Below are positions 44,563 to 48,641 of a stretch of 56,615 nucleotides of DNA, piece by piece; position 1 is the first letter of the stretch; the number at the start of each line of letters is the position of its first letter. A program made the position numbers and the translations under genes. The notes beneath the pieces were generated by a model. It was not told where the DNA came from. It worked only from the letters and a program-made list of their open reading frames with translations, and searched no databases. This DNA comes from Cyanobacteria bacterium REEB459 (lineage in GTDB: Bacteria > Cyanobacteriota > Cyanobacteriia > Phormidesmidales > Phormidesmidaceae): contig JAGWXD010000020.1 in NCBI GenBank assembly GCA_018970085.1, positions 1-56,615 on the forward strand, in the 5' to 3' direction.

Positions 44563-44662
44563 TTGCCTAGCTTCAGGTTGAAGGCCAGGCGGAGGGTCTA
44601 CCCAGGTCTGGCGGTTGCTTCTATCCTATCCCCCTATTCTTGCCAAGGTTACCTTTGCAGCG

Positions 44663-46843
44663 ATGTCTTCCTCCCCGTCTCCAACCTCAGGTCAGCCTCC
44701 AACCCTGGAAACAGCCACCGCCCAACTCTACAGCCAGGCCCTGCGGGCTTTGCAACAGCACCGCTATAACCAGGCTGTGGAGTATTTCCAGCAGGTGTAC
44801 CAGCAAACATCCGTACCCGCTATCTATCGGCTTAAAGTTACCATGGGCTTGATCCGTGCCCATCAGGGCCTGGGCCAATGGCACTTGGTGCAGCGGTTAT
44901 GTCAGCCCCTGCTGGCCCACCGCTCACTCCAGGTGCGTCAGTGGGCCACCCAGGTGGTACAGGCCTGTCCCGCTGTCCCGGGCGATCACCCCCAGAGCCC
45001 CAGCAAAGCTGTACCGCCGCCAGTCCCTGGCCAATCCCTATTTCATTACCAGCAGCTGAATCGTCAGGTGGGTGGGGCGGTAGACCGGGTTCAGCCTGAG
45101 TTGGTAGCCGGCAGCAGCTTTACCCCCCTGGCCCTGCCCCAGAGATTACTGCTCTATGGTCTTCAGGCGATCACGGCGATCGCTGGGGCCTGGCTGATTA
45201 TTTTCCTTGTCCATAGTAGTTTGCGCAGTGGTAATCGTCTCATCCGAGCCATCCCCTGGCCCGTCCCCCTCTCCGGTCTGCCTGCCTTAGATCGCCCCCA
45301 GACCGCTTTAATCTTAAGTGTGCTATTGGCTCTGGCTCTAGCCAGCCCCTGGTTGATGGACTGGATGCTGGGGAGGGCCTATGGTCAACATTCCCTGCCC
45401 CTATCCCAACTCCAAAGGGACCATCCCCAAGCCCTGAGGCTATTGCGTCGGGTATGCCAGGGGCAGGGCTGGGCCCTGCCGCCGCTGCGGCTGCTGCCAG
45501 TCACCACGCCCCTCTGTTTTAGCTACGGTTGGTGGGGCCGCCATAGCCGTCTGGTGGTCAGCCAGGGCCTTTTGACAGCGATAGGCCCACAGACCCTAGC
45601 TACCCTGGTTAGCTATGAGCTGGCCCACAGGGCGAATGGTGACCTGCCGGTGATGTCAACTCTGGGCCTATTGCTGCTGGGCTGCCATGGGGGCTATTGC
45701 CGCCTGGCGGCCTGGGGCGATCGCCAGGTGGGGCTGGGGCGCTGGCTGTTGGTCCTGGCGGCGGCTGGCTGCTATGGCGGATTTTGGCTGCTGCGGCAAT
45801 TGGCCCTGGGACTCTCACGCTTGCGTAGTCGCCTTTGCGATCGCCAGGTACTGGCCCTGAGTCAGGACCCTACCGCCCTCTCCCAAAGTTTGATCGATCT
45901 AACCCTGGCTCTGGTTAGGGATGTCCAGCAGCAGGGTGCGCTCCATCCCCTGGGATTAGCCCTGGAGGTACTCATGCCCCTGAGTGTGCGATCGGCCTTA
46001 AGTCCTGGCAGTTTTTTGAGCCCCCAGAATTGGCCCGCCCTCACCCCGGATGCCCTGTTCCAGGATGACAGAACTAACCCCTATCGTTACTGGTTGCAGG
46101 CTAACTCATCCCATCCTCCCCTGGGGGAGAGGGTGCAGGGTTGCCAGGGGTATATCCAGCATAGGCAGGATCAGCCGCCTGGATCGAGTCCTTTCTCCGT
46201 AGCCCGTTTATTAGGCCAGAAAAGCCCCCTGGTAGGCCTTTGCAGCGGCGGCGTTTTAGTCCTAGCCCTGGGTTTACTGGCCAGGATCCTCAATACCCTG
46301 GGCTGGTATGGCCTTAACTGGGTGTATCAAGACCCCAATGTGCTCAAGGGCGGGCTGCTATTGGGCCTGGGATTGGGTATGCTGCTACGGATTAACCCTT
46401 TGTATCCTGCCATTTCCTCCCGCCGCACCCCCCGATCGGATCTGGAAACCATTCTGGTTAACCGCCCCACCAGACTACCGGTGGAGGGTCAGCCGGTTTG
46501 CCTGGAGGCGACCCTGATCGGTGCCGCCGGCCTGGCCAATGGGTTAGCCCAGCAATACTACCTGAACTGGGGCAAGGGGCTAATCAAGCTAGCCTTCACC
46601 CCTCCCCAGATGGTCTGGCTAGGCCTAGGGAATTCTCCCTACCACCCCCAAGCCTGGCTAGGACGTAAGGTCCAGGTGATGGGCTGGGGACGACGGGCAG
46701 GGGGGCACTTTTGGATTGACGTTGCCCACCTGCAAGCCTCTGGCCAGTCCCTGGGCTTGCAGGATCACGGTCCTCTATGGAGTAGCCTGGTGAGCCTGGG
46801 GCTAAGCCTGGCGGGACTTTTGATCATTTTCACAGGCAAATAG
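44663..46843 (+). CDS. M48-type membrane protein with degenerate active site
   Basis: A 726-residue protein from the ATG at 44663 (a TTG at 44615 is an alternative). Residues about 10-110 look like TPR-type helices (SQALRALQQHRYNQAVEYFQ). A membrane domain resembling M48/HtpX peptidases follows. The zinc motif HExxH is replaced by YELAH at about residues 318-322, and the third ligand region reads SRLCDRQVLALSQDP, so peptidase activity is doubtful. A C-terminal domain (LPVEGQPVCLEATLIGAAG, then WLGRKVQVMGWGRR) looks like an OB-type fold before a last membrane span. It may be a scaffold or pseudo-protease; the substitution may be general in the cyanobacterial subfamily. Confidence 0.75.
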   Translation: MSSSPSPTSGQPPTLETATAQLYSQALRALQQHRYNQAVEYFQQVYQQTSVPAIYRLKVTMGLIRAHQGLGQWHLVQRLCQPLLAHRSLQVRQWATQVVQACPAVPGDHPQSPSKAVPPPVPGQSLFHYQQLNRQVGGAVDRVQPELVAGSSFTPLALPQRLLLYGLQAITAIAGAWLIIFLVHSSLRSGNRLIRAIPWPVPLSGLPALDRPQTALILSVLLALALASPWLMDWMLGRAYGQHSLPLSQLQRDHPQALRLLRRVCQGQGWALPPLRLLPVTTPLCFSYGWWGRHSRLVVSQGLLTAIGPQTLATLVSYELAHRANGDLPVMSTLGLLLLGCHGGYCRLAAWGDRQVGLGRWLLVLAAAGCYGGFWLLRQLALGLSRLRSRLCDRQVLALSQDPTALSQSLIDLTLALVRDVQQQGALHPLGLALEVLMPLSVRSALSPGSFLSPQNWPALTPDALFQDDRTNPYRYWLQANSSHPPLGERVQGCQGYIQHRQDQPPGSSPFSVARLLGQKSPLVGLCSGGVLVLALGLLARILNTLGWYGLNWVYQDPNVLKGGLLLGLGLGMLLRINPLYPAISSRRTPRSDLETILVNRPTRLPVEGQPVCLEATLIGAAGLANGLAQQYYLNWGKGLIKLAFTPPQMVWLGLGNSPYHPQAWLGRKVQVMGWGRRAGGHFWIDVAHLQASGQSLGLQDHGPLWSSLVSLGLSLAGLLIIFTGK

Positions 46844-46894
46844 GGCAGGGCCTTGGCCAGCCCCACTATAGTCTTGCCAAAAAAAACCTGGAAT

Positions 46895-46910
46895 GTTACA
46901 TTTATTTACA
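46895..46910 (+). promoter_or_regulatory. HLR1 element (RpaB binding site) upstream of a small RNA
   Basis: GTTACATTTATTTACA matches the HLR1 consensus of two (G/T)TTACA(T/A)(T/A) repeats with a 2-base spacer: GTTACATT-TA-TTTACAGA. It lies 37-52 bases upstream of the predicted start of the small RNA, with -10-like TATTTT at 46935-46940. Confidence 0.7.
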
Positions 46911-46946
46911 GATTTGGTACCTACCATTCAGCCCTATTTTTTGTTC

Positions 46947-47028
46947 GGGTTGACACTGGTTTAATCGGTATCAGGTTCTCCTACTCTCAACACAGCAAGT
47001 GAACCAGTCCCTGCGGCTGGTTTTTATT
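46947..47028 (+). ncRNA. psrR1: Candidate PsrR1-type photosynthesis regulatory small RNA
   Basis: The unit has an HLR1 element, a -10-like box and about 80 transcribed bases: a 5' stem-loop (TGACAC / GTATCA with one mismatch), an unpaired pyrimidine-rich stretch TTCTCCTACTCTCAACAC (46976-46993) able to pair with ribosome-binding sites, and a 3' intrinsic terminator. No ORF lies here, and both flanking genes point towards it. This layout matches PsrR1 of Synechocystis 6803, a high-light-induced repressor of photosystem I mRNAs controlled by RpaB. Identity with PsrR1 is from remembered features, not an alignment; the start site is estimated. Confidence 0.55.
47002..47028 (+). terminator. Intrinsic terminator of the candidate small RNA
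   Basis: AACCAG (47002-47007) and CTGGTT (47017-47022) pair around a 9-base loop, followed by TTTATTTG. The T-tract lies only on the plus-strand side, so it terminates plus-strand RNA and does not serve trxA. Confidence 0.85.
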
Positions 47029-47099
47029 TGAGACCATCTATGCTCTCAGCCACTGGGCTACTATTGAACTCTGGGTTTGGGCCTAAAGGCCCAGGTTAA

Positions 47100-47423
47100 C
47101 TACAGGTGCTGATCAACCGCCTCGGTGAAGGCTTCGTAGGGCTTGACTCCTACCAGGGTAGTCAATACCTCTCCTTGCTTAAACAGCATTACGGCTGGAA
47201 TGCTACGAATTCCCAGACGCTTGGCCAGAGCTGAATGGGCATCTAAATCTACTTTAAATACCTGAAGGCGATCGCCGTAGGCCGCTGCCAATTGATCCAT
47301 CAGTGGGCCCACCATTTTGCAAGGGCCACACCAGGTAGCCGTAAAATCTACGACCACCAGAGACGGACTGGCAATTAAACTATCAAACTCGTCGTCGGTT
47401 TCAATATAGGCGGCAGTGGTCAT
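47100..47423 (-). CDS. trxA: Thioredoxin
   Basis: A 107-residue thioredoxin with the redox site WCGPCK at residues 31-36 and the cis-Pro in IRSIPAVMLFKQG near 76. It keeps VVDFTATWCGPC and the C-terminal VGVKPYEAFTEAVDQHL. It is a single-gene unit on the minus strand, facing the small RNA terminator. Which thioredoxin class (m, x, y or others) it belongs to is not settled here. Confidence 0.95.
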   Translation of the reverse strand: MTTAAYIETDDEFDSLIASPSLVVVDFTATWCGPCKMVGPLMDQLAAAYGDRLQVFKVDLDAHSALAKRLGIRSIPAVMLFKQGEVLTTLVGVKPYEAFTEAVDQHL

Positions 47424-47720: not shown

Positions 47721-48539
47721 TCAAGTTTCTGAGGCAGAGGAAGAACGGTTAAAGGAAGGAGTTAGGTAAGCCACCAGGGCCCCCATCAGAAAACCAACAA
47801 TATTGCGAATAATGGGTAACCACTCACTGGTGCGGGTAACCACCGGGCCAATACCAAAGGCCAGAAATAAAATGCCCCACAGGGGTGAAAAAATCAGCAC
47901 CCACTGCCAGGCCAGGCCCTGACCCGGTTTACGAGCATGGGCGGCAAAGCCACACACCAGACCCCCCACAATCGAGGTGACGAGAGTTAAAATCCATTGC
48001 TCCTGGGGCAGGCCAGGTACTACACTGCAGCCTCCCTGGCGCAAACACACTTGAATCGAGTCTAAAGCACTTAAAATCGAGCGGTCTTCGCCATTTTCCC
48101 GGACAAAAAATTGATTTCCGTAACGAGTTTGTAACTCAATCCAGAAGGTCCGTGGCAGCAGGTCGTAGACCGCATCGCCAACGCTAAAATTAAGTAGATT
48201 ACCACCGCGAGGATCGGCGACCAGCATAACGCTGCGATCGTCTAATCCCCAAAAATCCTTAACGGCTCGACCAGGGGTACGGTCGTACTGGGTTAGCACT
48301 CGCAATTTCCAACCGGTTTCGGTCTCAAATTGACTAAGTTCAGTATTAAGGTTTTCTTCCTGACGGGGAGTGAGGGACTTGGCTAGATCGATAATCACAG
48401 TGTCATTGTCGGGCAATAACTCTGGGTTGTCGTAGGCTAGAGCAGGATTGGCGGGTAGGCCAAGGCCCCATAGAACCAGACCGACGAACAATAGTTTAAT
48501 AATTGATGCCACACCGATTGGCCAGGAAGAACGTGTCAT
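47721..48539 (-). CDS. psb32: Photosystem II repair protein Psb32 (TPM domain)
   Basis: A thylakoid-associated protein that protects photosystem II from photodamage and speeds its repair. It has 272 residues: a signal peptide cleaved near residue 35 (NPALA-YD) and a TPM domain from about 40 to 170 starting NPELLPDNDTVIIDLAKSLT and including SVMLVADPRGGNLLNFSVGD. Two or three C-terminal membrane spans follow. A likely RpaB-binding HLR1 motif lies about 90 bases upstream, consistent with high-light control. It stands alone on the minus strand. Confidence 0.93.
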   Translation of the reverse strand: MTRSSWPIGVASIIKLLFVGLVLWGLGLPANPALAYDNPELLPDNDTVIIDLAKSLTPRQEENLNTELSQFETETGWKLRVLTQYDRTPGRAVKDFWGLDDRSVMLVADPRGGNLLNFSVGDAVYDLLPRTFWIELQTRYGNQFFVRENGEDRSILSALDSIQVCLRQGGCSVVPGLPQEQWILTLVTSIVGGLVCGFAAHARKPGQGLAWQWVLIFSPLWGILFLAFGIGPVVTRTSEWLPIIRNIVGFLMGALVAYLTPSFNRSSSASET

Positions 48540-48625: not shown

Positions 48626-48641
48626 TTTACACTTATTTACA
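48626..48641 (-). promoter_or_regulatory. HLR1-like element upstream of psb32
   Basis: Two TTTACA repeats at 48626-48631 and 48636-48641 are exactly 10 bases apart (TTTACACT-TA-TTTACATC on the plus strand, 14 of 16 consensus positions). The motif is 87-102 bases upstream of psb32, read in the opposite direction to the gene. Confidence 0.6.

Follow-up and report, generated by a model that had tools for sequence, protein, structure and literature searches.

PsrR1 (SyR1; Rfam RF02701) of Synechocystis 6803 is the best-known small RNA (sRNA) tuning photosystem I to light. Its gene is controlled by RpaB, and the RNA represses psaL (PMC10989914, PMC13421787, in the sections available). According to those sections of PMC10989914, a 22-nt pairing covers both the ribosome-binding site and the start codon of psaL and recruits RNase E. 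For RpaB, a repression zone of -38 to +23 and an activation zone of -45 to -66 have been given (PMC13421787). As far as the sources quoted describe them, the RpaB-repressed high-light genes hli and rpoD3 carry HLR1, the RpaB site, over the core promoter, in the same way as the locus considered here. RpaB was also located at 22 non-coding RNA promoters of Synechocystis (PMC12850537, in the part consulted), so that RpaB-controlled RNAs besides PsrR1 are already known as such.

The window (the whole stretch of DNA that was analysed, 56,615 bp) comes from a genome of Nodosilinea, a genus of which some members are filed as Leptolyngbya or Shackletoniella. The locus of interest occupies the 256-bp gap between an M48-like gene, ending at 46843, and trxA, which lies on the minus strand and ends at 47100. 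We consider it likely that it encodes a trans-acting sRNA belonging to a family like PsrR1 in design, and perhaps in descent, yet separate from it, and that this RNA is an RpaB-gated repressor of psaL. The features of the locus are as follows.

44615-46843, plus strand: M48-like protein gene, the upstream neighbour (Pfam PF01435), syntenic elsewhere
46874-46902, plus strand: sigma70-type promoter, with -35 TTGCCA (46874-46879), a 17-bp spacer and -10 TACATT (46897-46902)
46895-46910, plus strand: HLR1 element (RpaB site) GTTACATTTATTTACA, spanning about -14 to +2 from the predicted start and sharing bases with the -10
46909-47028, plus strand: predicted small RNA of about 120 nt, its 5' end placed from the promoter and its 3' end from the terminator
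46911-46977, plus strand: 5' stem-loop domain, in which 46911-46921 pairs with 46967-46977; its sequence differs between genomes
46974-46998, plus strand: invariant core GGTTCTCCTACTCTCAACACAGCAA, mostly unpaired, the predicted psaL-leader pairing region
47001-47028, plus strand: intrinsic terminator, stem AACCAGTC/GGCTGGTT (47001-47023) plus T-run
47100-47423, minus strand: trxA (thioredoxin; TIGR01068), convergent, occupying the place of the relatives' rbp3

The promoter matches 9 of 12 consensus bases, and its -10 sits within the first HLR1 half-site, where it is conserved. HLR1 itself agrees with KTTACAWWNNWTTACA at every position; two sites with at most one mismatch are present in the window against 0.07 expected, a number reached in 0 of 100 shuffles. 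The near-perfect HLR1 described in the first-pass annotation is therefore real as a sequence element, and it is kept with at most two mismatches in 25 of the 26 loci of the genus (the exception, L007, has four), all 25 of which have TTG at a spacing of 17 or 18. The -10-like TATTTT that the same annotation had placed near 46936 did not hold up, being not conserved among homologues. Because the conserved -10 lies inside HLR1, the start is more likely near 46909 than near 46940. The second HLR1-like site of the window (48626-48641, one mismatch) is found 87 bp upstream of a TPM-domain, weakly Psb32-like gene (47721-48539, minus strand).

The same promoter layout was recovered from loci chosen by a pattern in the 3' part only (CAACACAGCA...ACCAGYC...GGCTGG), with the promoter ignored. 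Scanning of genome contigs gave at least 116 such loci, many of them from Nostoc and its relatives; two of the 116 listed are non-cyanobacterial (Pseudomonas, Rhizobium) and represent chance matches. Among these 116 listed matches, 100 have HLR1 no more than 150 bp upstream (at most 2 mismatches over 14 positions), 61 of them perfect, against 3 of 2059 random 150-nt windows taken from the same loci. A good HLR1 is absent from 16, the two chance matches included. In all 100 HLR1-bearing listed loci TTG stands 17 (95 loci) or 18 (5 loci) from the -10, which is expected at random in about 7%, and the promoter-to-terminator distance in these loci predicts RNAs of 107-150 nt, with a median of 127. 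Since HLR1 at about -14 to +2 falls inside the RpaB repression zone, the gene is predicted to be silent in low light and active in high light. Less than 60 bp upstream of HLR1, 77 of the 100 HLR1-bearing listed loci (L122-L237) also carry a sequence resembling HLR1 in inverted orientation (no more than 4 of 14 positions mismatched), compared with 71 of 2320 random 60-nt windows; RpaB may have a second site in these loci, opposed to the first.

The segment 46909-47028 folds with -34.2 kcal/mol (z -2.9), and 0 of 200 shuffles were equally stable. The computed fold contains the 5' stem that had been proposed for this RNA, and the strand-specific intrinsic terminator, also proposed earlier, was found on the plus strand. 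Two terminator-like sites occur in 46500-47400 against 0.9 expected, so the terminator pattern alone is weak evidence; covariation in its stem, with one pair changed on both sides, is uninformative, as 55 of 500 shuffles reached it. The stem ACCAGCC/GGCTGGT is nearly invariant across families, beyond the need of termination. An unpaired CU-rich stretch had been claimed as well: TTCTCCTACTCTCAACAC is present at 46976-46993 and the computed probabilities leave the core mostly open, but its first four bases are mostly paired. There is no ATG inside 46909-47028, and homologues differ by indels that are not multiples of three; the predicted sRNA encodes no protein, whereas hli and rpoD3 are protein-coding. 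We conclude from the sequence that 46874-47028 is a small-RNA gene on the plus strand, with transcription inferred.

Conservation of the locus lifts the finding above chance. A 161-bp query found matches in each of the genus's other 25 genomes and, its own included, in 35 of the 57 genomes searched, mostly within the core and terminator, and the 25-nt core is identical in all 26 loci of the genus, that of the window among them. After re-orientation, the alignment showed that the core is kept, as is an HLR1 in a constant position, and that the 5' part of the RNA varies. The CU-rich core and the terminator, whose absence from related genomes the first-pass annotation had named as evidence against such an RNA, are both conserved. 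For more distant genomes we used a covariance model, R3, built from 41 sequences over 66 positions of the 3' part, with the terminator stem set by hand; it replaced the model R1, which had a poor consensus structure, probably through misaligned outgroup terminators, and was used for sequence content. R3 matched 122 of 290 Cyanobacteriia genomes at E<=1e-6 (the next match had 1.3e-5), at least 19 of the 122 having supplied sequences to it, in a survey whose stricter filters can miss weak matches. The positives comprise 39 of the 40 genomes of the window's family (f1) and 17 of 17 of the genus. No match was obtained to E=0.05 in the Synechocystis/Microcystis family f27 (at least seven genomes searched). 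Judged by these matches, the sRNA family is common to many cyanobacteria.

The relation to PsrR1 deserves closer consideration. Both RNAs have HLR1 at the core promoter, a CU-rich core beginning with GTTCTCCTA and an intrinsic terminator, and the psaL start region is the known target of one and the predicted target of the other; PsrR1 measures 131 nt and the window sRNA is predicted at about 120 nt. Their 3' halves differ (CTCAACACAGCAA plus the CCAGCC terminator in the window sRNA), and so do their loci, M48-like with rbp3 or trxA in one case and the fabF-hoxH spacer in the other, although synteny is a weak criterion. The latter difference agrees with the first-pass annotation, in which the context was said to depart from that in Synechocystis 6803, and the gap does lie downstream of both neighbours, trxA being convergent. 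The identification as a PsrR1-type RNA made there stands as regards an sRNA gene, an HLR1 at the position of RpaB repression and predicted pairing with the psaL ribosome-binding site; as regards PsrR1 itself it does not. The Rfam 15 model, RF02701, with a gathering cut-off of 42 bits, gave 68.6 bits on a Synechocystis-type locus (L062) and 69.1 bits on L102 of genome G112 as positive controls. Neither the window RNA nor family members from other lineages (L053, L047) gave a match to E=1, and there was none in the 40 genomes of family f1, the window's own included. By the RF02701 test, then, the window sRNA is not PsrR1.

It may nevertheless be argued that the sRNA is a PsrR1 orthologue too diverged for the Rfam model, and that coexisting copies are paralogues. 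The common HLR1 logic, core start and predicted target speak for this, as does the lack of RF02701 matches in the window's family, owing to which the sRNA could stand in for PsrR1 there. One locus, in G127/G103, was matched both by RF02701 (31.4 bits, below the cut-off) and by R3 (43.3 bits), and combines, behind a similar promoter, PsrR1's TTGACATTGAGTTTCTCCT with the CAGCA...ACCAGCC end of the window family; this mixture of features makes common descent with PsrR1 plausible. On the other hand, a sequence-only model, R2, made from 23 Chroococcales PsrR1 sequences likewise found nothing to E=10 in 26 loci of the window's family (R2 matches weaker than about E=1e-4 were many and chance-like, and were left out of counts), and the neighbour genes differ. 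RF02701 exceeded its cut-off in 18 of the 290 genomes, in f27 (7) and f28 (11, taken as Nostocales), and eight of these 18 also carry the R3 family, at different loci (G073, G078, G083, G091, G112, G118, G122 and G144). Several of the RF02701 matches in these eight genomes are situated behind psb34, but in G112 and G144 one RF02701 locus has an HLR1 of its own (one mismatch) and is not a psb34 3' UTR. We therefore hold a diverged orthologue to be possible and, given the separate loci, rather unlikely, and prefer a distinct family which very probably does the same job as PsrR1. PsrR1 of S. elongatus was not found; at the PCC 7942 coordinates R1 gave only E=1.57, and the coordinates of that genome may differ.

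PsrR1-like elements were also encountered directly behind psb34 (position about 1500), over the RF02701 cut-off in L258 and L260-L264 and below it in L266; L080 and L086 are placed likewise, having been found with PsrR1 DNA and not scored by RF02701. Psb34 identity (NF033486) was confirmed for L260 and L266, and the other loci were named by likeness. It looks as if psb34 3' UTRs released PsrR1-like RNAs. PsrR1-like elements are multi-copy in G091 and G144, each with five RF02701 matches at E<=0.01, some of them below the cut-off.

The sole named target tested was psaL (PF02605). In ten Nodosilinea genomes TTGGAGA stands just upstream of the psaL start in all, and TTGCTGTG at -35 to -38 in nine. 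In the window's own pair, the predicted duplex involves 21 of the 25 core nucleotides: GGUUCUCC with the ribosome-binding site, and CUCAA and CACAGCAA with TTGAG and TTGCTGTG just upstream of it. The main pairing in Nodosilinea would thus be upstream of the start codon, which the 22-nt contact of PsrR1, in the account cited above, includes. Cognate duplex energies, which leave out folding of both partners, range from -28.5 to -35.7 kcal/mol in nine of the ten genomes, values attained by 0-3 of 500 dinucleotide shuffles. The proposal that the CU-rich stretch is complementary to ribosome-binding sites is in this way supported for psaL. In the tenth genome (G006) the upstream block is absent, and the duplex of -23.4 kcal/mol was equalled by 25 of 500 dinucleotide shuffles. 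Two psaL paralogues of the genus without the site reached -17.6 and -17.9. For the window pair, at -31.4 kcal/mol, one of 227 non-psaL start regions scored as low, and TTGCTGTG occurs in two of these 227 controls. Taken without the ribosome-binding block, the upstream block (-55 to -17) has only a modest advantage over mononucleotide shuffles, of which 3 to 47 in 500 were as low in the nine genomes and 348 in 500 in G006. It may lie outside the mRNA.

Complementarity was also seen where the sequences have changed. In another genus of the family (G485), the 25 core nucleotides fall into two perfect complement blocks of 11 and 14, with a duplex of -45.6 kcal/mol (z -8.2, mononucleotide shuffles). 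The G485 target site was reached through an R2 match, L111, which is the antisense of a psaL leader. In Roseofilum, where TTGCTGTG is absent before psaL, CATGTGTTCTT of the sRNA matches AAGAACACATG of psaL, start codon included (-28.2, with 2 of 1000 shuffles as low); in this contact CATGTGTTCTTCC pairs with GGAGAAGAACACATG over 11 nt through the start codon, and the window sRNA gives only -16.7 on this leader. The psaL pair would be hard to explain unless functional, since complementarity is kept in three genera with different sequence.

Alternatively, the core could serve a protein or several other mRNAs, the match to psaL arising incidentally from a widespread ribosome-binding sequence. In agreement with such a role, CAACACAGCA is kept where the psaL upstream block is absent (G006, Roseofilum), and the sequence of the terminator stem hardly varies. 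Exchanging sRNAs between genera did not separate cognate from foreign pairs cleanly, as some foreign pairs scored well: on the G485 leader the sRNA of Roseofilum reached -34.9, a lower energy than with its cognate leader, and that of the window -45.6; on the window leader the sRNA of Roseofilum reached -24.5. Against it stand the scarcity of other start regions pairing as well with the window sRNA (the single one of 227), the 25-nt match in G485 and the matched change in Roseofilum, and we regard this explanation as improbable. Searches for long complementarity revealed no clear second target: 17-mers with at most 3 mismatches numbered 8 in the own genome against 5 in the reversed control, and 72 against 42 in six genomes, counts that include each genome's own sRNA. 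A wobble-rich 13-mer search was swamped by G-rich repeats and was rejected, and the positions of two exact 13-mer matches in G009 were not convincing. The 400 bp upstream of psaL contain no HLR1, even with 3 mismatches allowed, so that at this gene there is no sign of the RpaB arm of a feed-forward loop.

The neighbourhood of the sRNA raises the question of a cis function. In 103 of 117 loci (the 116 listed and the window) the M48-like gene precedes the sRNA in the same orientation. Its product has YELAH in place of the protease HExxH, a motif found in 0 of 91 long M48-like homologues beside the sRNA among the matches listed; with HExxH absent, it is probably not an active metalloprotease. Downstream, an RRM gene with PDPRWA, which marks type II Rbps, Rbp3 among them (PMC9333190, in the part available), follows in 24 of 25 relatives of the genus, the exception, L011, being a short contig. 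An RRM protein occupies this place in 94 of the 117 loci (116 listed plus the window), and all 94 have PDPRWA. As rbp3 runs in the same direction as the sRNA, the RNA could be a leader or attenuator of rbp3, with a transcript that starts at the HLR1 promoter, mostly stops at the terminator and sometimes reads into the gene. In the window genome, however, the PDPRWA gene is on another contig (G000:C23:125024-125461) and is not preceded by an sRNA core. The promoter, core and terminator of the sRNA are nevertheless intact, and this persistence without rbp3 argues against a cis-acting leader. The gap of about 440 bp between core and rbp3 in the Nostocales loci shown and the match of the core to psaL are also at odds with it, and we find the leader explanation quite unlikely. 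At 3.24 Mb the window genome is the smallest of the genus among those listed, and its rbp3 is away from the M48-sRNA locus. trxA, in the place of rbp3 here, is not part of the sRNA system.

Yfr1, which adjoins trxA in other cyanobacteria and likewise has an unpaired CU-rich stretch flanked by two hairpins, is almost certainly not what the window encodes: its ultraconserved ACTCCTCACAC is absent from the whole window, ACUCCUCACAC occurs there 0 times, Yfr1 is 54-69 nt long and the window sRNA about 120 nt, twice that, as inferred from the promoter-to-terminator distance, the promoter here carries HLR1, and trxA is convergent, rbp3 and not trxA following the sRNA in 24 of 25 relatives.

For the preferred reading, a psaL-repressing sRNA of a family separate from PsrR1, we propose a mechanism that builds on the observed conservation, promoter layout, HLR1 position and complementarity, the last seen also in genera with changed sequence. 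In low light, RpaB on HLR1 would cover the -10 and the start site and block RNA polymerase; in high light RpaB would depart and the RNA of about 120 nt would be made. The 5' stem and the 3' terminator would leave the invariant core mostly single-stranded, and the core would pair with the psaL leader and shut off PsaL translation, perhaps exposing psaL mRNA to RNase E. The outcome would be less photosystem I. That the RNA is transcribed, that RpaB binds HLR1 and high light induces the gene, that psaL is repressed and that RNase E takes part are what we infer from the sequence in this scheme.

Novelty was judged against Rfam 15 and the open literature. No second HLR1-controlled sRNA of this kind was named in the portions of the literature searched, the founding paper on PsrR1 lying outside that search. 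On balance we are inclined to see here a second, undescribed and class-wide family of RpaB-gated high-light sRNAs, usually located between M48-like and rbp3 genes, which would control psaL in the many lineages that lack PsrR1, act beside PsrR1 in Nostocales and co-evolve with the psaL leader. The contact predicted with psaL in the window genome is stronger than with 226 of 227 other start regions, and in the 290 Cyanobacteriia genomes the reach of this family, 122, compares with 18 over the cut-off for RF02701. If the proposal is true, the sRNA-target pair would be open to tests by few point mutations, and control of photosystem I by RpaB through an sRNA would be widespread among cyanobacteria, and not a speciality of few lineages.
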